DNA of 64,000 bases from a virus: IMG/VR virus record IMGVR_UViG_3300007644_000002, positions 1 to 64,000 of that record; one strand, 5' to 3'. Positions 5,884 to 14,907 of this stretch are shown here, piece after piece. Made by a program: the position numbers and the translations under genes. Below the pieces are notes generated by a model. The model was given only the letters and a program-made list of their open reading frames with translations. It ran no database searches and was not told the origin of the DNA. Positions within the stretch are counted from its first letter, which is position 1; every line of letters starts with the position of its first letter.

Positions 5884-7305
5884 TTATAGTTTGAAGTCAG
5901 AAAAATTAGATCTCTCCGTTAACAGTCTCTGGCCAGATGCGCTATTATCGAACGCTGGGCCATTGTCCTCTTCTTTATTTAGAGGCGAATCATTCTGGTC
6001 AACATCATACAATCGCATCTTACTTCTATCTACACCGATAACGAATCTCTGGTTCGCACCAAGGTCGTTATATCGGTTCTTTAACTGTTTCACTAATATC
6101 TGATTTGACGCTTTAAGTTCGTCATTCACTATGAGCGCAAACATAAGGTCTGCGGTCGCAGGCAATCCAAAAGACTCAGACGTATCTTCCAATCCGACAT
6201 CATCATTATTGTAACCACCACGAGTAGTTTGTGTCGCCGACACGACAGGCACGTCAAACTCGACAGCAAGTCCACGTAACTCTTCAGCAATTGACTTGAT
6301 GTAACTATAAGAGTTGATTGACCCACCCATACCCTTCATACGCGCACTTGAACAAATGTTCAGATAGTCAATGAAAATAATATCAGGTATCATATTACGT
6401 TTAAGTTTTAGCTCATTCAGTAACGCACGGAAGTGATTAGCATGAGCGGAACCAGTTGGATACTCTTTAATGATTAACTTACCATTAGTCTTAGTAGCAA
6501 TATTCTGAACCTTCTTAGTAAATGAATCTTTACTGAGATGTTCTAATTGATCAATAGGGACATTCAGTAAGTTCGCATCAATACGTTCTGCGATACGTTC
6601 TTCGGACATCTCCATAGTGATGTATAGGACGTTCTTACCCTGAGACAGAGCAGAAGCTGCCATATGGCACATGAACAGAGACTTACCAACACCAGTACCC
6701 GCAAGAGCGATGTTCAATGTCTTCTTAGGTAGACCGCCTTTAGTAATACGATTGAAATAGTCTAAATCAAATTCTAGACGTTCTTCTTCCAAGTGGTAGA
6801 AATCAAAACGTTCATCAGCGTTATCAATATAGTCGTGACCAATGTTAGTATCGAACGATACGGACAGGGCTTTAGACAGTACATCAGGAATAGCATTCTT
6901 ACCCAACTCAGCGTGTTTGCCGTCGATGATAGAGATAGACTCCATGACAGCATTAAACACCGCACGGTCTTGACACCACTTCTCAGTGCGCTCAAGTAAC
7001 CACTCTAAGTTTTCCTCAGAGTAATTGAAGATGTCCGGAAGGATATCCATAGCATGACGGTACTGCTCGTCAGTGAGACGGTCAGTACTGTCCAGTTCAA
7101 TCTTGAAAGCTTCCTTAGAGGGAAGACGATTGAACTTAGCAATGAACTTAGTAAACTCTTTGAAGAGTGCCTGATAGACACCCTCAAAGTAGTCAGGATT
7201 TATAAACGCTGCGACCTTACGTGTGTAAGGATCATTAGTCAATAGATTCCGTAGAATCGTCTGTTGTAGATTGATTTCCGTCACTTGCTGCTCCAATTGA
7301 ACCAT
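5884..7305 (-). CDS. 41: gp41 replicative DNA helicase (DnaB family)
   Basis: A 473-residue hexameric helicase, close to T4 gp41 (475). The N-terminal helical domain (1 to about 160) is followed by the RecA-like motor: Walker A GTGVGKS (203-209), Walker B IIFIDYLN, and a glutamine-switch motif VVSATQTTRGG. It unwinds the lagging-strand template and normally loads a primase; no gp61 or gp59 gene is seen in the window. The start at 7305 overlaps the previous gene by 71 bases; no later in-frame ATG would preserve the N-terminal domain, and the length supports this start. A promoter-like site lies at 7648-7676. Confidence 0.92.
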   Translation of the reverse strand: MVQLEQQVTEINLQQTILRNLLTNDPYTRKVAAFINPDYFEGVYQALFKEFTKFIAKFNRLPSKEAFKIELDSTDRLTDEQYRHAMDILPDIFNYSEENLEWLLERTEKWCQDRAVFNAVMESISIIDGKHAELGKNAIPDVLSKALSVSFDTNIGHDYIDNADERFDFYHLEEERLEFDLDYFNRITKGGLPKKTLNIALAGTGVGKSLFMCHMAASALSQGKNVLYITMEMSEERIAERIDANLLNVPIDQLEHLSKDSFTKKVQNIATKTNGKLIIKEYPTGSAHANHFRALLNELKLKRNMIPDIIFIDYLNICSSARMKGMGGSINSYSYIKSIAEELRGLAVEFDVPVVSATQTTRGGYNNDDVGLEDTSESFGLPATADLMFALIVNDELKASNQILVKQLKNRYNDLGANQRFVIGVDRSKMRLYDVDQNDSPLNKEEDNGPAFDNSASGQRLLTERSNFSDFKL

Positions 7306-7600
7306 CTTTAATTGCTAGTTCTATTACATCAATTAATATATCTGTGCAAAACTGCTGCAACTCTTCATTTACGAGATTGACCGTCTCAGGATAGCGTGTG
7401 GAGACGACATCAAAATTAAACTTTAATTGAGTCTCTTCACCTTCACCATCAAGTTGTACATTTTTATAACGGATTCTACTCCCATCAAATGGAGCACGTA
7501 GAATCATTACTTCCCACGTTTGACTATCGTCCTGCGCGTACGCAGGCACTAATTCGTAATCAACACCTTGACTAGGTTTATCTAAATCTAACGCTCTCAT
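7235..7600 (-). CDS. Conserved protein between uvsX and 41, function unknown
   Basis: A 121-residue acidic protein (MRALDLDKPSQGVDYELVP...). Its middle (MILRAPFDGSRIRYKNVQLDGEGEETQLKFNFDVV) is a run of beta strands, and the tail is Ser/Thr/Asp rich. A protein of similar size and character occupies the same slot between uvsX and 41 in T4-like marine phages, where T4 itself has gene 40. I see no catalytic motif. It overlaps uvsX by four bases and gene 41 by 71 bases, so it is tightly co-translated with both. Confidence 0.55.
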   Translation of the reverse strand: MRALDLDKPSQGVDYELVPAYAQDDSQTWEVMILRAPFDGSRIRYKNVQLDGEGEETQLKFNFDVVSTRYPETVNLVNEELQQFCTDILIDVIELAIKDGSIGAASDGNQSTTDDSTESID

Positions 7601-8652
7601 TCAATTATCTCCTTTAACGCATCAAGTGTATCTAAGTTGATGGGGCTATTATACCCTATTTGATAGGTCTTGGCAAGGAATTCTTTGAAATCACTTTCAG
7701 AAAAGATAGGTTCCCAGAATTCTTCGGTTAGAGTGTCCTTGGTACGAAACTTCTTATCTTCTGCTTCGGTGCCATGACAACGCGAATACCAACCATTACT
7801 TGGTTTGATAACATATCCACCAGCCAAGGCAACCTCGAGCAGACCAGACCACTTCTGTACACCACCTTCCCAAGATACGCCAATCGGAATCTTCGACTGT
7901 TCTTTCACATATCGAGACTTCTCAACCTTGATGATGAAGTTGTAACCAGTGATTTCCATGCCAGTCTTTTCTTGTTGACGGCCAATAATCCAAATGTTAT
8001 CAGCTGAGTAATAGATGCCGGTGCCGCCACTAACCACATCTTTCGGAAACAAACCAATCTCTTTATAAGTGTGATTGATTGCCAACATTGGAATGTTCTT
8101 CATCGCAAGATACGGAGTACACATTCTGAACAGACCCTTCAGTGCCTTCGCACGTGACATGTCCGCAACACCTTTCTCGCTCAAGGCATCGTCCAGTTCT
8201 TTTTTAGACGCAAGGTTACCAATAGAGTCAATGACAATGATTACATCGTCGTCACGGTCTAGTTCTTCAAGCTGACTAATCAAGTCAAACTTCAAGTCTT
8301 CGACGTGTTTGATAGGCGTGTGTAACACACGAGAGGTATCAATACCAAACTGCTCGAAGTATGATTGAGGCGATCCAAACTCTGAATCATAGAACAACAT
8401 AACCGCATCTTTCTTCGCTTTCAGGTAAGCACCTGCCATCAACAATGCGAATGAAGTCTTGAAGTGTTTAGATGGGCCTGCAAGAACAGTTAGACCTGGC
8501 GCCACACCCCCATCAACAGAACCCGATAAAGCGACGTTCACCATTGGAACGTCGGTCGGTATCATATCTTTTGCTGTAAAGAATTTACTCGTACTGAGAA
8601 CTTCAGTCTCTTTAATCTTAGAGTTCTTCTTTAGTTTGTCCATTATACTCAT
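7597..8652 (-). CDS. uvsX: UvsX recombinase (RecA family)
   Basis: A 351-residue RecA-like strand-exchange protein. The P-loop is GPSKHFKTS (59-67), typical of UvsX. Walker B is DVIIVIDSIGNL (about 136-147), and AINHTYKEIG with GGTGIYYSADNIW matches the L2/catalytic region. UvsX coats ssDNA with help from UvsY (33917-34363 here) and drives recombination-dependent replication. Length agrees with T4 UvsX (about 390) minus part of the acidic C terminus. It abuts the UDP-sugar dehydrogenase gene (one-base overlap). Confidence 0.93.
   Translation of the reverse strand: MSIMDKLKKNSKIKETEVLSTSKFFTAKDMIPTDVPMVNVALSGSVDGGVAPGLTVLAGPSKHFKTSFALLMAGAYLKAKKDAVMLFYDSEFGSPQSYFEQFGIDTSRVLHTPIKHVEDLKFDLISQLEELDRDDDVIIVIDSIGNLASKKELDDALSEKGVADMSRAKALKGLFRMCTPYLAMKNIPMLAINHTYKEIGLFPKDVVSGGTGIYYSADNIWIIGRQQEKTGMEITGYNFIIKVEKSRYVKEQSKIPIGVSWEGGVQKWSGLLEVALAGGYVIKPSNGWYSRCHGTEAEDKKFRTKDTLTEEFWEPIFSESDFKEFLAKTYQIGYNSPINLDTLDALKEIIE
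7648..7676 (-). promoter_or_regulatory. Sigma-70-like promoter inside the 3' end of uvsX
   Basis: Minus strand: TTGCCA (7671-7676), 17 bases, TATAAT (7648-7653); one mismatch in the -35. It is placed to boost the 121-residue gene and gene 41. It lies in coding sequence, so it may be coincidental. Confidence 0.5.
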
Positions 8653-9566
8653 TAATCTTTTGCCTCACCAAAGTTAGCGAATGTGATGTTATTAACCTTT
8701 TCTCTTTCATCAAGGTCGTATTGTACACGATAACGAGTGTTTATGTCAAGTACTTTCTCAAGTAAGTCAAAAGATATTTCTTGGTCATCCACCTTATGGG
8801 CAGAGAACTTTAAGAAAGCATTCGTATCTTTAGGAAGACACGCACCACCGAAACCTCGTTTACCATCAAAGCCAGGCACACGAGTGTGGCCCATACCAAC
8901 ACGTTCGTCCAGTCCTGCCGCACGAGTAATGATGTTATAAGAACATCCATATAGATTAACCAAGTCATATAACTGATTAAAGAATGTTACCTTCGTAGCA
9001 AGATAGGAGTTGATTGTATACTTAACGAATGATGCCTCGAATGCGGTCATACGGTGATAGTCATTAGACTCACAACCACTGAAGATATCATAGATTTCAA
9101 TCAGTTCTTGAGTTGCCTGTGGAGAACCACCCATGACGTGGAACTTGGCAGTAACGAAGTCAGCCTTAGCGTTCTTCTCTGTCAGGAACTCAGGATTATA
9201 ACAGAATCGGTCTACTTGACGACGATCCATAGTATTGTATAGTCGCTGGACTACATCCGGAGTGACCGTAGATTTAACTACGACCAATGCGTTAGTGTGA
9301 TAAAGAGTCTTCAGTACAGCATTTTCCACGATAGTAGAGTCTACAGTTCCGTTGTCATTAGATGGAGTCGGAGCACACACAAATACACATTGTGGGTCGA
9401 ACTCTTTTAGATCATCTACCGATGTATTGTACTTCGGGTCAATTAGTTTGAAAGCAACCATCGGATGAGTAAACGCATACTCAACCGCTTGGCCAACAAA
9501 ACCGTGACCTACGATTGCCACACGAAAAGGATTCGCTGGACTTAGTGGAGCATCATTATTTGACAT
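8652..9566 (-). CDS. UDP-glucose/GDP-mannose dehydrogenase family enzyme (short form)
   Basis: A 304-residue NAD-dependent UDP-sugar dehydrogenase. It has the Rossmann motif VAIVGHGFVG (16-25), the VVKST block (97-101), YNPEFLTE (123-130) and the active-site block RGFGGACLPKDT (238-248) with catalytic Cys243. It lacks most of the C-terminal UDP-binding domain of cellular enzymes (390-450 residues). The family oxidises UDP-glucose to UDP-glucuronate with two NAD+. The epimerase gene directly upstream overlaps by one base, so the pair could make UDP-glucuronate and then UDP-galacturonate for the several glycosyltransferases in this genome. Confidence 0.82.
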   Translation of the reverse strand: MSNNDAPLSPANPFRVAIVGHGFVGQAVEYAFTHPMVAFKLIDPKYNTSVDDLKEFDPQCVFVCAPTPSNDNGTVDSTIVENAVLKTLYHTNALVVVKSTVTPDVVQRLYNTMDRRQVDRFCYNPEFLTEKNAKADFVTAKFHVMGGSPQATQELIEIYDIFSGCESNDYHRMTAFEASFVKYTINSYLATKVTFFNQLYDLVNLYGCSYNIITRAAGLDERVGMGHTRVPGFDGKRGFGGACLPKDTNAFLKFSAHKVDDQEISFDLLEKVLDINTRYRVQYDLDEREKVNNITFANFGEAKD

Positions 9567-10507
9567 TATTTAATCCCATTATAAGTTTTGTACCATTCAT
9601 AAAAACGTTCAACACCTTCGGCGATACTTACCTTGGGTTGATATCCTAGAGCCTCTAACTTAGAAGTATTAGACCAAGTCTCTAGAGTATCCGCTGGATG
9701 TTTAGGTGCGAGGTTTTTAATTGCCTCTTTACCTACATTCTTTTCAATTTGCGTGATGAATTCCATAAGTTCGACTTGTTCACCACGACCGATGTTGAAA
9801 ATCTCTCCCGATTCAATCTCAGGATGATTTAAAACGCACTCGATACCATCTAGGATATCTTCCACGAAGGTAAAGTCTCGCTTCATGTTCCCGTAATTAT
9901 ACACGGTAATCTCTTCCCCGTCAAGGATTTTATTCGTAAAATCAAATAAAGCCATATCAGGACGACCCCAAGGGCCATATACAGTGAAGAATCGTAGACC
10001 GACAGTGTTGAGTCCTGACGATTGGAACTGACATTCGTTTGCCCACTTGGTGTAACCATATGCGTTCAACTGTTTACCGGTCTCTTGACCTTCAGTCCAA
10101 GGTACCTGAGAACCCGCGTACACACAAGACGTTGACGCATAAATGATACGAGTGTCGGGAAGGTATTTCTTACACACATCAATAAGATTCTGAGTAGCAT
10201 CAATGTTGTTACGGTGATACTGTTTCTCTTTACCCATTGAGTCACGTACGCCCGCGTGAGCAGCGAGATGGATGATAACATCTGGAGAAAATTCACGCAA
10301 TAACGCTTCAGTCTTGATGTCGTCCGCGAGGTCACAGTTCCAGATAAACAGGTCAAAGTGAGTCATGCGGTCTATTTTGAGTTTCGGGTCATACAGGTGA
10401 CGATTGAAATTATCGATACCTTTTACTTCATACCCATTGTTTTGTAAACGTCCAGCGAGTTGTGAACCTATGAATCCGGCAGCGCCGGTTACAAGTATTT
10501 TCTTCAT
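9566..10507 (-). CDS. NAD-dependent nucleotide-sugar epimerase (extended SDR)
   Basis: A 313-residue extended short-chain dehydrogenase. TGAAGFIG (7-14) binds NAD, LAAHAGVRDS (81-90) and YASTSCVYAG (123-132) hold the substrate pocket, and the catalytic pair is Tyr150/Lys154 (YGYTK). The HAGVRDS block is typical of UDP-glucuronate 4-epimerases and relatives. With the adjacent dehydrogenase this suggests a UDP-Glc to UDP-GlcA to UDP-GalA route. The exact substrate cannot be fixed by eye; UDP-glucose 4-epimerase is the main alternative. Confidence 0.8.
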   Translation of the reverse strand: MKKILVTGAAGFIGSQLAGRLQNNGYEVKGIDNFNRHLYDPKLKIDRMTHFDLFIWNCDLADDIKTEALLREFSPDVIIHLAAHAGVRDSMGKEKQYHRNNIDATQNLIDVCKKYLPDTRIIYASTSCVYAGSQVPWTEGQETGKQLNAYGYTKWANECQFQSSGLNTVGLRFFTVYGPWGRPDMALFDFTNKILDGEEITVYNYGNMKRDFTFVEDILDGIECVLNHPEIESGEIFNIGRGEQVELMEFITQIEKNVGKEAIKNLAPKHPADTLETWSNTSKLEALGYQPKVSIAEGVERFYEWYKTYNGIK

Positions 10508-10510
10508 TGT

Positions 10511-11479
10511 TTAACCATTCCTATAAATGTATTCTAATGCTCGATCAGCCTCTACCAACAGAGGCCTACTAGCATACCAGTTTCCAGTATCGTTGTCGAA
10601 CTCACGAATTAGGTCTGCGAGTTGGGTGGCGGTGAGGGGATATCCTTTCGCATATGCGTTACCCGCAATTGACAACATAATGCTGTACATCTTACCATAC
10701 CACCCAGTGTCGCTAATTTGTTGATACTCCGCACCCAGTCTTCGAGGCCAGAACGGGCAGTCACGATATGATGACCATCTGAAGTCAGTATTATTTAGAC
10801 CGTCCTTACGATGTTGAATTACGGCAGATGCCAAGTGTGGAGGTAGTCTATCTAGAAAAGAATTACCAGTCTTCTCGTGATAAGGATGTTTAGCAATCAA
10901 CTCTGACACATTCAGAGCAGCTCCTTTATTCTCAAAGAAGAACGACCACGCGTTAGGATATACCGCAGGGATATAGTACATACGCGCAAGGTCTTTAGTC
11001 TGTGGGTCACCGATCTCACCCAGTTCAGTGTTGAGTGCGTACCAGAACGCTTTGATGCGCTCGGTCTCAACCGTCTCGTCTAATCGAAAGACAATGCGAA
11101 ACTTAGGATAGTTATCTACGTCTTTCGGATGAGTCGGCTCACGTGAACTTGCTGTATTGTAGACCACATAATCATACTGACCGAAGTCTTCACGTAATGC
11201 GTCTTCTAGGGCACTAAGAGAACCGGTAGGATAATTATGATCGTCCACATCAACACAGCACCAACCACCCCAACGTAGAGTATTGCGGTTAGCGCGAGTC
11301 GTGCCGTCCTCGAAAACAGCAGGAGTAATAAGAGCAGAACTGTTAGCACCACCTTTTTGTCCCTCTTTAGTCGAGAGTGCTTTCAGTAAACCAACGAAGG
11401 CATCCCAAGTATCAAAAGATTGCTTGCGATGAGTCTTGTTGTCGAACTGATTTTTAAATATAGTTAATTCGTAATTCAT
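10511..11479 (-). CDS. Archaeo-eukaryotic primase (PrimPol-like) protein, candidate replicative primase
   Basis: A 322-residue protein with features of the AEP superfamily: the hDhD metal motif in WCCVDVDDH (73-81, Asp77 and Asp79), the block YNTASSREPTHP...YPKFRIVF (107-131), and DPQTKDLARMYYIP (158-171). These match, in order, the motifs of plasmid and phage RepB/PrimPol-type primases. It starts 30 bases after a consensus promoter and lies next to gene 43, uvsX and 41. No DnaG-type gp61 gene is visible here, so this protein might prime the lagging strand. The family call rests on motif order only. Confidence 0.6.
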   Translation of the reverse strand: MNYELTIFKNQFDNKTHRKQSFDTWDAFVGLLKALSTKEGQKGGANSSALITPAVFEDGTTRANRNTLRWGGWCCVDVDDHNYPTGSLSALEDALREDFGQYDYVVYNTASSREPTHPKDVDNYPKFRIVFRLDETVETERIKAFWYALNTELGEIGDPQTKDLARMYYIPAVYPNAWSFFFENKGAALNVSELIAKHPYHEKTGNSFLDRLPPHLASAVIQHRKDGLNNTDFRWSSYRDCPFWPRRLGAEYQQISDTGWYGKMYSIMLSIAGNAYAKGYPLTATQLADLIREFDNDTGNWYASRPLLVEADRALEYIYRNG

Positions 11480-11485
11480 GTGACC

Positions 11486-11514
11486 ATTATACCATAATAT
11501 AGAGTGCCTGTCAA
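11486..11514 (-). promoter_or_regulatory. Sigma-70 consensus promoter of the PrimPol-uvsX-41 operon
   Basis: Minus strand: TTGACA (11509-11514), 17 bases, TATAAT (11486-11491). Perfect match. The -10 is seven bases from the ATG at 11479, so the transcript would be nearly leaderless, or the first part of the gene may be translated from an internal start. Confidence 0.8.
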
Positions 11515-14006
11515 CCGAAGAAATCCTCTAGTGACGACGGAGGTTCCGCGTCCCAACCAACCGCATCAAGAATGGGAGTAAGTGGGTCTAGGAAACTTTT
11601 AGTAAACATCAGGTCATAATCGATATGAGTATGTAGACGCAACTCTTTTGGCATATTAAGTGGGTATGATATAACATTCTGACCCAAGTAATTAGGAACT
11701 TTCAGATAAACGAACTTAATCTTCTCGCCCGTCTGGACTTCCTGATACTTCTGTGTCAGACCGTGAGTCTTCAATGCGGCATTGTAACACAACGCACCGC
11801 GCACATGAATCGGAGTACCTTTCTTGAAGATAGTCTTGCGGTCTACCCATTTGTTCAGGGCAGATATACCACGAGGGAATGAAATATCTTCGGGTGGTAA
11901 GGTTCTGAAATGGGACTTAAAGTCTCGAATGTACTGTTGTGTGTCTGATTCGGTACCTTCTACGATAACCCGAAAGATTTCCTTGAACTTGTCACGCACG
12001 ACCGAAGGTGTCGAAGACTTGATTGCCTCGATACCCATCATCTTGAGTTTAGGTTCTGCGTATTGGACACCCTCGTTGTTATGGACGTTCAGGATGTAAC
12101 GTTTCTTAGCCATCCAGATACCACGGTCAGCGATAACTTCACGTCCCATCTCCATACGATTACTATATGCGCCAGTAATCTTCGCCATCTCTGCGTAAGA
12201 TGTTTCCAGAACTTTCTCAAAGTGTTCGGAACAAATCTTGTCTAGGAATTTAACAGGGTCTTTAGGAGCAAACTTATCAACCAAGGCACCCATACGAATA
12301 TAAACAGAGTCGGTATCAATTGCCACAACGTAGTCTTCATCTGTTTTAAGGAGGTTTTGCATTTCATTGTTAACGGCTCTCTCTGCCCATTTGATTGCGA
12401 GTTGACCCGCAATAGTAATTGATTCCGCAACTCGCTGATCAAAATATCTAAAATAGCGATTCCCAAGGGCGCCATAAAGTGAATTCATAAGAATCTTGAT
12501 GGCGGCCTGTTTATTGTTCAGAGAGGTAATCTTATACTGGAGCGCCTTAGATGGATTATGTTGATACTCTTGTTGAAGTTCCAACATCTCTTTCTTGACT
12601 ACCCGACGTTCCGAATAGTATTGTTCGATGATTGAAGGAACAACACCTTTTCGGTCGTGCGAGAATCTAACACCAGTAGGCGCAATAGAATGACAGAGTT
12701 TAGAATAATCAAAGTCGTCACTATACATAGTACCGTCTAGTATTTTATCCACAGACATATTTGGAACAATACCATCCAAAACAGTCTCGGGGGACATGTT
12801 GTACTGTACAATGATGTTAGGATACAGAGAGTTCAAATCGAAAGAGGTTACCCAGTCGTGCGAACCGACTTGAGGTTCTTTCACGTAACCACCGGCAAAT
12901 GCGGACTTAGGTTTATCTGTCTTAGGTGGAACCACAATCTGTTTCGCGTTCAGCATACGATAGATGATGCTGTCCCAGATATTAGTAGTACCTAGGGTAT
13001 CACCGTAGTTGGCACCTGCCTTATATGCCATAGTCAGGATAAGGGAGATGAGGTCGAGTTTCTCGTCCAACGCATGAACGAGTTCAACATCCTTAATGTT
13101 ATAGTCGATGAACTTCTGGTAATCTTCTTTGTAGAGATTAAACAGGGTACCGTGTTCTTCGTAGTCGATTTTACGCTCACCGAGTTCGATAGTCGCGATG
13201 TGGTCGAGACGATACGATTCTTGTTGGGTATATGTGAACTTCTTGTAAACATCCAAGTAATCGAGATGCTCAATACCCTCAAGGATATATTCTTGAACCT
13301 TCTTACCGAAGTATTCCCGATTGCGCTCGCGGATGATACCCCAAGGCGATAGTTTAGAAAGTAGTGTTTCGTCACCAAATAGATTACGCGTACGGTTGAT
13401 GATGTACGGAATATCAAATCCCATAGTGTTCCAACCAGTAATTACGTCGGGAGTATGGCGACTCCAGTGGTCAATAAACTTACGCAACAAATCCATCTCG
13501 TTATCGCATTTGATATACAAGACATCTTTACGTGTGACCACATAGTCATTCAGACCCCACACCCAGTAGACACCGTCGTTCTTGCGTAACGTAATAGAGA
13601 TGACAGGATGTTCGGCCTTACTAGGTTCAGGGAACCCCGCGTCAGACGCAACCTCAATATCGAAGTTGGTGACTTCTACCGAAGAACGGTCGAACTCGAT
13701 ATCGGTCGGGAATTTTTTAGCGATGTACTGAAACACCATGTTATTCATACCGTACACATTGACGTTAGAAACGTCACGATACAGTTTATCAAACTCGGTC
13801 GCCTCAGACATAGAGTCGAAAGTCACGGGCGCGACATTCTGACCGTCTAGGGTTTTCCAAGGTGAGGTTTTGTCACTATTGACAAATAGAGTGGGTTTAA
13901 ACGCAATCTTTTTCTTGACGCGTTCGCCATTTTTGTATCCGCGATACAGCAAGTTATTGCCGCGACGGACAACTGAGGTATAGAATTCTTTAGTATTTTT
14001 TATCAT
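11511..14006 (-). CDS. 43: gp43 DNA polymerase (family B)
   Basis: An 831-residue family B polymerase, slightly shorter than T4 gp43 (898). Exonuclease motifs: ExoI FDIE (115-118), ExoII GWNTMGFDIPY (191-201), ExoIII YNIKDVELV (302-310). Polymerase motifs: A SFDLNSLYPN (388-397), B KILMNSLYGALGN (504-516), C DTDS (564-567). All catalytic acidic residues are present, so both proofreading and synthesis should be active. It should work with the clamp gp45 and loader gp44/62. It has its own promoter at 14013-14041 with almost no leader. Confidence 0.96.
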   Translation of the reverse strand: MIKNTKEFYTSVVRRGNNLLYRGYKNGERVKKKIAFKPTLFVNSDKTSPWKTLDGQNVAPVTFDSMSEATEFDKLYRDVSNVNVYGMNNMVFQYIAKKFPTDIEFDRSSVEVTNFDIEVASDAGFPEPSKAEHPVISITLRKNDGVYWVWGLNDYVVTRKDVLYIKCDNEMDLLRKFIDHWSRHTPDVITGWNTMGFDIPYIINRTRNLFGDETLLSKLSPWGIIRERNREYFGKKVQEYILEGIEHLDYLDVYKKFTYTQQESYRLDHIATIELGERKIDYEEHGTLFNLYKEDYQKFIDYNIKDVELVHALDEKLDLISLILTMAYKAGANYGDTLGTTNIWDSIIYRMLNAKQIVVPPKTDKPKSAFAGGYVKEPQVGSHDWVTSFDLNSLYPNIIVQYNMSPETVLDGIVPNMSVDKILDGTMYSDDFDYSKLCHSIAPTGVRFSHDRKGVVPSIIEQYYSERRVVKKEMLELQQEYQHNPSKALQYKITSLNNKQAAIKILMNSLYGALGNRYFRYFDQRVAESITIAGQLAIKWAERAVNNEMQNLLKTDEDYVVAIDTDSVYIRMGALVDKFAPKDPVKFLDKICSEHFEKVLETSYAEMAKITGAYSNRMEMGREVIADRGIWMAKKRYILNVHNNEGVQYAEPKLKMMGIEAIKSSTPSVVRDKFKEIFRVIVEGTESDTQQYIRDFKSHFRTLPPEDISFPRGISALNKWVDRKTIFKKGTPIHVRGALCYNAALKTHGLTQKYQEVQTGEKIKFVYLKVPNYLGQNVISYPLNMPKELRLHTHIDYDLMFTKSFLDPLTPILDAVGWDAEPPSSLEDFFG

Positions 14007-14012
14007 GTGGCC

Positions 14013-14041
14013 ATTATAGGTTAATATGAACGCTGTGTCAA
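14013..14041 (-). promoter_or_regulatory. Sigma-70 consensus promoter of gene 43
   Basis: Minus strand: TTGACA (14036-14041), 17 bases, TATAAT (14013-14018). Perfect match. It lies in the short gap between the PP-loop gene and gene 43, with the -10 seven bases before the ATG. Confidence 0.8.
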
Positions 14042-14907
14042 GAGAAAAAATCGGAAAGGGTAGCAGTATTGTTCTGTTCGTACCAGTCTCTACAAATGTC
14101 CATCACTCGCTGACGACGTTTGTAATTAATCTCACCATTATCTATTAGTGTTTCAAATAACTTGTCTATCCCGCCACCTAGTTGTAGGTTGATGTGGGGT
14201 TTGACCTTACCAAGAACTTTTTCGATCTCAAACTCTTCTCGAATTATATTCTTCTGTTTTGGTTTGTTGAGTTCTTCCCACGAGAACTTCATAAAGAACT
14301 CGCGTACGCGTGGATCTAGATACGGAGTAACATGAACCTTACCATGTTTCTCTGCTAGATTAGTGTGTTGTTTTAGTCCTGCGCAGTCACCGTCGAGGTA
14401 GGCATTACGGAACTCATTCCAGTTGACTCTCTTCTGGTTGTTTTCTTTACAGTACTTGACATAGTTGCGCTTCTTTTTAAAAGAAGAGTATCTAATCATT
14501 GCTTTCTTAGAACACCCGAAGTATGCGTCAGCACCCCATCCAGTGATACAGTATTCTTCTGTCATGTTTTCATAACAATAGAGGAAGGGAAACACTGCGG
14601 CTTCGTAGTGGGATTTCTTGCGACAACCATGTTTGACTAGTCGGTGCCAGTCTTCAACTAGGTTATCAGTAGGGACAATAATAGTGGTGAACTCCCACCC
14701 CATGATTTCTGCGACTTCCTTTGCCTTCGCGTGGTCATAAGATGGTTGTCCTTCAAGATGGAAACTATACGCGTGTACAGTCTTCCCAGCATCCTGTGCA
14801 GCGATTGCCACACTGATACTGTCAACACCACCAGAAAGAAGTACCGCAACTTTATCATGCGGCACCTTTCCTGCTATGTGGTCAGAGAGAATTTCTCTAA
14901 TCATCAA
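14038..14907 (-). CDS. Asparagine-synthase-like PP-loop ATP pyrophosphatase (no glutaminase domain)
   Basis: A 289-residue enzyme with the N-type PP-loop SGGVDS (25-30), then HAYSFHLEG and GWGADAYFGCSKK, as in the C-terminal synthetase domain of AsnB-type asparagine synthases. The N-terminal glutamine amidotransferase domain with its Cys nucleophile is absent, so it must use free ammonia, another amine donor or a partner protein. The chemistry expected is adenylation of a carboxylate and formation of an amide. It is the last gene of the operon that begins with the C5 methyltransferase and CmoA-like genes, which would supply a carboxylate. Amidation of a sugar acid is the main alternative. Confidence 0.72.
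   Translation of the reverse strand: MMIREILSDHIAGKVPHDKVAVLLSGGVDSISVAIAAQDAGKTVHAYSFHLEGQPSYDHAKAKEVAEIMGWEFTTIIVPTDNLVEDWHRLVKHGCRKKSHYEAAVFPFLYCYENMTEEYCITGWGADAYFGCSKKAMIRYSSFKKKRNYVKYCKENNQKRVNWNEFRNAYLDGDCAGLKQHTNLAEKHGKVHVTPYLDPRVREFFMKFSWEELNKPKQKNIIREEFEIEKVLGKVKPHINLQLGGGIDKLFETLIDNGEINYKRRQRVMDICRDWYEQNNTATLSDFFS

Follow-up and report, generated by a model that had tools for sequence, protein, structure and literature searches.

T4-like phages usually pair a DnaG-type primase, gp61, with the helicase gp41, and together these two proteins form the T4 primosome, the reference model for coupled unwinding and priming. The locus described here raises the question of which protein primes DNA synthesis in a T4-like phage that keeps gp41 and carries a protein of another fold beside its polymerase gene. 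In Table 3 of PMC2993671, the replication genes classed as Core or Quasicore in T4-like phages include both gp41 and gp61. The window, by which we mean the whole stretch of 64,000 bases analysed, is bases 1-64000 of the 82,714-base virus record IMGVR_UViG_3300007644_000002, which is itself a fragment. The original prediction from this DNA was that a PrimPol-like protein takes the place of gp61. Our answer, to which we assign a probability of about 0.83, is that a stand-alone primase of the archaeo-eukaryotic (AEP) type replaced the DnaG-type gp61 across a large clade of T4-like marine phages, one that is Kyanoviridae-like and lies next to the classical cyanophages. The genes concerned are as follows.

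11511..14006, minus strand: gp43, family B DNA polymerase (phrog_262, E=0; Pfam DNA_pol_B, 6e-35)
10511..11479, minus strand: AEP-type primase gene, predicted (open reading frame from ATG to stop, 322 aa; PHROG 9765; AlphaFold2 model; fold matches to AEPs)
9566..10507, minus strand: nucleotide-sugar epimerase (Pfam Epimerase, 6.7e-52)
8652..9566, minus strand: UDP-glucose/GDP-mannose-type dehydrogenase (Pfam, 4.9e-16)
7597..8652, minus strand: UvsX recombinase (phrog_97, 3.9e-91)
7235..7600, minus strand: 121-aa ORF between uvsX and gp41 (weak phrog_3998 match)
5884..7305, minus strand: gp41, DnaB-type replicative helicase (phrog_19, 6e-126)

The predicted location of the AEP gene, between gene 43 and the epimerase-dehydrogenase-uvsX-41 genes, is borne out. 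In the direction of transcription the order is gp43, AEP, epimerase, dehydrogenase, UvsX, 121-aa ORF and gp41, all on the minus strand, with 31 bases separating gene 43 from the AEP gene and 3 bases separating the latter from the epimerase gene; the plus-strand reading of 10511..11479 contains 16 stops. The nearby gp43, gp41 and UvsX genes make this a T4-type replisome setting, and the phrog_19 match identifies the helicase as a true gp41, of the DnaB type that had been proposed, with a start that may lie some codons inside the listed ORF (many relatives align from residue 7-13 only). Among 233 AEP loci, several of which share one contig and many of which are short, the genes in view are gp43 at 202, uvsX at 155, epimerase at 149, dehydrogenase at 142, gp41 at 134 and gp61 at 0.

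Several other features of the region were noted. The epimerase and dehydrogenase genes (window 8652-10507) sit within the replication cluster, between AEP and uvsX, and their order is reversed in a few of the 233 loci, while a relative of the 121-aa ORF (window 7235-7600) is in view at 122 of them. An asparagine-synthase/QueC-like ORF of 289 aa with a TTG start (window 14038-14907) adjoins gene 43, and the window holds 4 tRNA genes.

Profile searches identify the protein with PHROG 9765, annotated 'DNA primase', which matches it over residues 1-254 at 2.3e-39 and matches phage C48C1 at 1.9e-39 and Vibrio phage henriette at 1.5e-94. Helicase-primase families match weakly (phrog_3228, 7.6e-6). 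Pfam and NCBIfam returned zero matches for the 322-aa protein, so that a check against AEP families, as suggested with the original prediction, succeeded with PHROG and failed with these two collections. The AEP family BT4734-like (Pfam PF08800; BT4734-like_N) matches 6 of 54 aligned sequences weakly, at a best E of 0.012, and the window protein is not among the six. Searches of PDB sequences by phmmer and by profile found no AEP, and hhalign comparisons with S-2L PrimPol and the phiST primase-helicase gave no support. Since these sequence searches gave no homology to a characterised enzyme, membership in the AEP superfamily rests on fold, motifs and PHROG.

We modelled the protein with AlphaFold2, using a 54-sequence alignment in which the window protein was joined by 53 relatives (pLDDT 87.7, pTM 0.63). 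The model predicts an AEP domain at approximately residues 1-203 and a helical C-terminal domain at approximately 206-322. A Foldseek search of the PDB returned two matches only at E<=0.001, the RSF1010 RepB' primase (1.2e-4) and the AEP domain of cyanophage S-2L PrimPol (6.7e-4), both with probability 1.00. In these best solved-structure matches an AEP domain is likewise followed by a helical domain, but S-2L PrimPol differs in that, as described in PMC8065100, it continues into a VirE/helicase-like C-terminal domain, and the motif II residue of RepB' is given as Gln in PMC5862659, unlike that of the window AEP. In the VIA search the S-2L AEP domain (Z 8.2, 3.9 A over 151 residues) is the sole row at Z 8 or above among the 50 listed; 40 of those rows cover the N-terminal part, and 40/40 are by title AEPs, primases or primase-bearing complexes, counting 2atz (HP0184) as an AEP because PMC8065100 includes it among AEP structures. 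The other 10 cover the helical C-terminal part alone. BFVD gave 70 matches at E<=0.001, and primase, helicase, VirE and RepB are frequent names among the 50 matches listed. When the C-terminal 125 residues were modelled separately, they again formed a helical domain (pLDDT 83.2) whose second-best VIA match is RepB' 217-300 (Z 5.3, 3.2 A over 75 residues); because RepB' rows are mixed there with unrelated helical bundles (designed, spidroin), we withhold a PriCT assignment for this domain.

The AEP motifs lie in the claimed order, with VDVDDH at residues 76-81, YNTASSREPTHP...FRIVF at 107-131 and DPQTKDLARMYY at 158-169. Their central residues map to the window as follows.

11243..11251, minus strand: motif I, D77-V-D79, predicted metal ligands (54/54 aligned sequences; D77 and D79 shared with two Vibrio-phage homologues)
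11096..11104, minus strand: motif II segment, K126-F-R128 (54/54; K126 and R128 shared with the two Vibrio homologues)
10982..11008, minus strand: motif III, D158 with T161/K162/D163/R166 (54/54; also in the two Vibrio homologues)

Ten residues (D77, D79, T109, K126, R128, D158, T161, K162, D163 and R166) are invariant across the 54 aligned sequences, and the two Vibrio homologues retain all of them except T109, which is substituted. D77-V-D79 agrees with the hhhDhD/E pattern by which PMC5862659 defines motif I of the superfamily, and D158, present in 54/54 and preceded by Gly in the window protein, agrees with the hD/E pattern of motif III. The sxH pattern of motif II is absent, Arg and Lys (K126-F-R128) replacing the His in 54/54. 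Superfamily membership tolerates this absence because, according to PMC5862659, the motif II His is family-specific and the DR0530-like family has Arg or Lys there. For S-2L PrimPol the residue set Y63, E85, D87, T112, K115, H118, D146 and R157 is given in PMC8065100, and by order and chemistry we offer F/Y56, D77, D79, T109, K126, R128, D158 and R166 as its candidate counterparts, with Arg for His and with spacings that differ within motif II and beyond motif III.

The protein is not of the gp61/DnaG type: phrog_47, the gp61 family profile, has no match in the record, the protein has 3 Cys and no zinc finger, and hhalign against gp61 gives a probability of 0.1. The gene is under purifying selection, with dN/dS of 0.07, 0.08 and 0.14 for three pairs of relatives; comparisons of the window protein with seven relatives give pN/pS of 0.23-0.30 at saturated or nearly saturated synonymous sites. 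We rejected a chance motif match, against which fold, PHROG and selection all argue. The AEP assignment is thus upheld by fold searches that return AEPs, by PHROG 9765 and by motif Asp residues present in 54/54 sequences. The label 'PrimPol' would imply polymerase activity, a putative property of this protein.

We then consider whether gp61 is absent where the AEP is present. The phrog_47 profile finds gp61 in T4, in S-SM2 and in 8/8 other named gp41-bearing phages, and has matches in 11 of 14 control genomes. It found no gp61 in the window, nor in the further 18.7 kb that complete the record, the rest of the genome available to the search that the original prediction had proposed, and the outcome named there as fatal, a gp61 gene elsewhere plus no AEP match, did not occur. 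Because the window's own record is a fragment, the absence of gp61 rests on the complete 156,191-base genome of C48C1 and on other long relatives. With the same profile gp61 was found in 0/42 AEP-bearing records (0/10, 0/25, 0/5 and 0/2 MAG contigs), of which 9, including C48C1, exceed 130 kb and most are fragments; gp41 is present in the 10/10 AEP-bearing records where it was sought, and in S-SM2 and T4 (12/12). Conversely, the AEP profile matched none of 30 gp61-bearing records: 0/22 contigs, in a search run without a positive control, and 0/8 named phages, in a search in which five other records do match. A search for records that carry both the AEP and gp61 found none. The replacement of gp61 is therefore supported by complete or near-complete relatives that retain gp41 and in which gp61 was not found. 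At the gene level the proposed mixed replisome of a DnaB-type helicase and an archaeal-type primase also holds, refined in that it becomes a trait of a clade and in that motif II lacks the His.

Two AEP contigs, JAAXIF010000028.1 (L369) and PBYU01000049.1 (L370), one of them 142 kb long, are binned in bacterial MAGs. They are probably phage contigs, and the gp61 matches in their MAGs fall on other contigs.

To avoid selecting on the AEP, 80 loci were drawn by gp41, although the AEP searches had also reached the contigs of some of them. Of those with gene 43 in view, 7/7 with gp41 identity of at least 66% (a cut set by us) and 0/9 below it carry the AEP, and in the same 7/7 clade loci the AEP adjoins this replicative polymerase gene. 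Three of 12 loci at or above the cut with at least 4.5 kb upstream (L390, L394 and L395) show neither AEP nor gene 43, and in L395 other long ORFs lie between the left end and uvsX. Among five records with gp41 below 66%, gp61 is found in one and in none of the other four (17.7-39.7 kb), which have no AEP in the stretches examined.

The polymerase and AEP genes are further alike in their promoters, both of which are perfect TTGACA-N17-TATAAT sequences.

14013..14041, minus strand: 12/12 sigma-70 consensus promoter before gp43 (-10 box ends 6 nt before the ATG)
11486..11514, minus strand: 12/12 sigma-70 consensus promoter before the AEP gene (-10 box ends 6 nt before the ATG)

With the -10 box ending 6 bases from the ATG, transcription is predicted to start at or beside the start codon, giving a leaderless mRNA. 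Five other same-strand sites of at least 11/12 precede ATG frames; four have leaders of 26-32 bases and the fifth stands 9 bases ahead of a 106-aa frame that is internal to the epimerase gene. We scanned relatives for promoter-like sites, defined as at least 9/12 with the -10 box 4-9 bases before the start codon, and found them in 80 of the 157 distinct upstream regions of the AEP gene and in 58 of the 111 of gp43. Shuffled upstreams had such sites in 42/2960 cases (AEP) and 52/2180 (gp43), but the shuffles were mononucleotide with one start each, any in-frame start within six codons was allowed at real loci, and related sequences are non-independent, so that neighbouring genes form the fairer control: uvsX 8/89, epimerase 2/82, gp41 1/41 and dehydrogenase 0/33. 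This shared promoter design would tie the AEP to the polymerase in expression.

These observations bear on the alternative that the AEP is active but serves as a repair or fork-restart primase-polymerase, gp61 having simply been lost and priming being left to host DnaG (or to R-loop or recombination priming). T4 gp61 is not known to be absolutely essential and the recombination gene uvsX is among the shared neighbours, both of which favour this alternative, as do published abstracts in which some AEPs function in damage tolerance. It accounts less well for an AEP that occurs without gp61 in 42/42 AEP-bearing records (the converse holding in 30/30), adjoins the replicative polymerase gene in every gp41-selected clade locus with gene 43 and often has the promoter design of gp43, and we regard it as improbable. 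A strongly diverged gp61 or another primase might instead lie among unannotated genes, with the AEP as an accessory, and more than half of the C48C1 genes are indeed 'hypothetical'. We rejected a gp61 hidden in C48C1 or in the window's own record, given that phrog_47, which detects gp61 in T4, S-SM2 and 8/8 named phages, finds none there, and that an unfiltered 81-sequence gp61 profile reached a best E of only 1.2 in 1546 C48C1 and 722 own-record open stretches (against 1.7e-123 for T4 and 4.7e-199 for S-SM2, both profile members and hence not independent controls). Moreover, in S-SM2 gp61 lies directly before nrdA, a place taken in C48C1 by a 150-aa hypothetical gene, and this alternative is very unlikely. 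Slimmer still is the chance of a degenerate AEP without catalysis, for example an adaptor bringing another primase to gp41, since the lack of a motif II His and of a zinc finger (3 Cys in the protein) is set against D77, D79, D158, K126, R128 and R166 in 54/54 and the Arg/Lys also found in the DR0530-like family (PMC5862659). We therefore prefer the role of replisome primase for the AEP because of its place, purifying selection, invariant catalytic residues and complementary distribution.

As replisome primase, the AEP would synthesise primers for lagging-strand and recombination-dependent synthesis. It would work on the gp41 ring, probably recruited via the N-terminal hairpin of gp41, which is conserved and in T4 is the binding site of gp61, and the helical C-terminal domain of the AEP may act like the PriCT/helix-bundle domains of other AEPs in binding the template or initiation site. 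Lys126 and Arg128, with the Thr109-Ser-Ser loop, could hold the phosphates of the incoming nucleotide, replacing the classical His. Residue 56 is always aromatic (39 Phe, 15 Tyr in 54 sequences) and, at 21 residues before motif I, may occupy the place of the ribonucleotide-excluding Tyr of S-2L PrimPol (22 before). Because this spacing, taken by itself, resembles that of the S-2L Tyr, DNA or mixed primers are conceivable.

According to PMC10359460, T4 gp61 uses two motifs to bind the N-terminal hairpins of gp41, and the docking segment of gp41 is T4 Phe104-Glu118. Across 76 AEP-clade and 18 gp61-cyanophage sequences, mean identity in this segment is 0.84 within the AEP clade and 0.53 between groups. 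We looked for a loss of the docking segment in AEP-clade gp41: the segment is conserved there, with no clear adaptation, and its difference between groups is no specific sign, because the N-terminal domain of gp41 as a whole diverges faster than its C-terminal domain, whether sequences are compared across the groups or inside them. Its conservation in the AEP clade fits docking of the AEP there, as far as sequence comparison goes. A more complete picture would be a chimeric primosome across an abundant marine T4-like clade, in which a zinc-less stand-alone AEP docks on gp61's former gp41 N-terminal hairpin, works with the gp41 ring and makes DNA or mixed primers, the outcome of one non-homologous replacement, with polymerase and primase co-expressed from twin consensus promoters as leaderless messages. 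Taken with all its parts, this picture is tentative and somewhat doubtful.

A tblastn search of 50,697 phage records found the AEP in 6, namely C48C1, at 70% identity, and five records of Vibrio phages, at near 30%; in the same collection gp41 is in 3108 records and gp61 in 2382. Searching IMG/VR with the window protein gave 166 relatives, of which the best 80 were kept, and with an alignment as query at least 595 stretches encode one. A viral-contig scan with the henriette protein as its only query found no relative. A quirk of a single genome is rejected by the many IMG/VR relatives, and the swap characterises a clade, not the window genome alone. In a gp41 tree of 39 rows, a single branch sets the 28 AEP phages apart (support 92/88, short of the strict level; 94% of bootstrap trees; 0/500 shuffles score as low), and the gp61-bearing classical cyanophages adjoin the AEP side. 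There was probably one old exchange of gp61 for the AEP, a single ancestral event being the simplest history; because the branch falls short of strict support and the two Vibrio-phage gp41 rows sit on a very long branch of 4.3 units, a second transfer could also have occurred.

The closest known counterpart is WJE87912 of C48C1 (OQ984149, Kyanoviridae), an orthologue annotated 'DNA primase' with 70% identity and the same gene order in a complete genome without a gp61 match. C48C1 differs in a DNA methyltransferase gene (L083:33480-34364) between gene 43 and the AEP, an insert also seen in some of its relatives. Its annotation includes clamp, clamp loader, SSB, UvsY and SbcC/SbcD-like genes too; a literature search for phage C48C1 by name found no paper. 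The PHROG 9765 members from Vibrio phages henriette 12B8, 2.058.O, 3.058.O and V6Aob are of similar length and approximately 30% identical to the window AEP, and those of henriette and V6Aob have the same motif I-III residues, in genomes where gp41 is present and gp61 was not found. In these smaller genomes, unlike the window, the gene lies near uvsY, directly before a Dda-like helicase gene and about 8 kb from the polymerase genes, and in henriette it is about 29 kb from gp41. The henriette annotation lists two 'DNA polymerase' ORFs (L087:435-1943 and L087:2573-3715) with another ORF between, possibly a split gene 43.

More distant systems resemble the AEP in part. T4 and cyanophage gp61 share its replisome slot as the partner of gp41, but have a zinc-binding domain and Toprim, as described in PMC10359460, where the window protein has an AEP fold. 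The PrimQH family treated in PMC5862659 joins an AEP to DnaB-family helicase domains, like the AEP and DnaB-type pairing here, but as one fused protein of mobile elements with Gln/His at motif II and not in a T4-type replisome with a separate gp41. Cyanophage S-TIM5 encodes a stand-alone AEP-like protein (AEZ65737, 328 aa, unannotated) with K-x-R at motif II in a genome without a gp61 match, though it is only distantly related to the window AEP (hhalign 81%). In S-TIM5 a 619-aa 'DNA primase' (L368:5593-7449; phrog_25243 its only strong PHROG match) precedes the AEP-like protein (L368:7482-8465).

It is already known that AEPs are common in phages, that AEP-DnaB fusions exist (PMC5862659), and that the C48C1 and henriette copies are annotated 'DNA primase'. 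For its T4-like group of jumbo phages PMC7824862 describes DnaG-like primases, and for a subgroup of siphoviruses it describes AEP fusions to an AAA+ ATPase. Our literature search found no report that a clade of T4-like phages had exchanged gp61 for a stand-alone AEP while keeping gp41. The proposed exchange would be a natural substitution of the primase by one of unrelated fold, while the genes for helicase, polymerase, clamp and recombination are retained, in a clade that is large in viromes (at least 595 IMG/VR stretches). It would directly probe which features of a primase a hexameric helicase depends on, whether docking surface, primer type or primer length. It also informs how a core replication subunit can be replaced, and suggests that the core of a well-studied machine is exchangeable.
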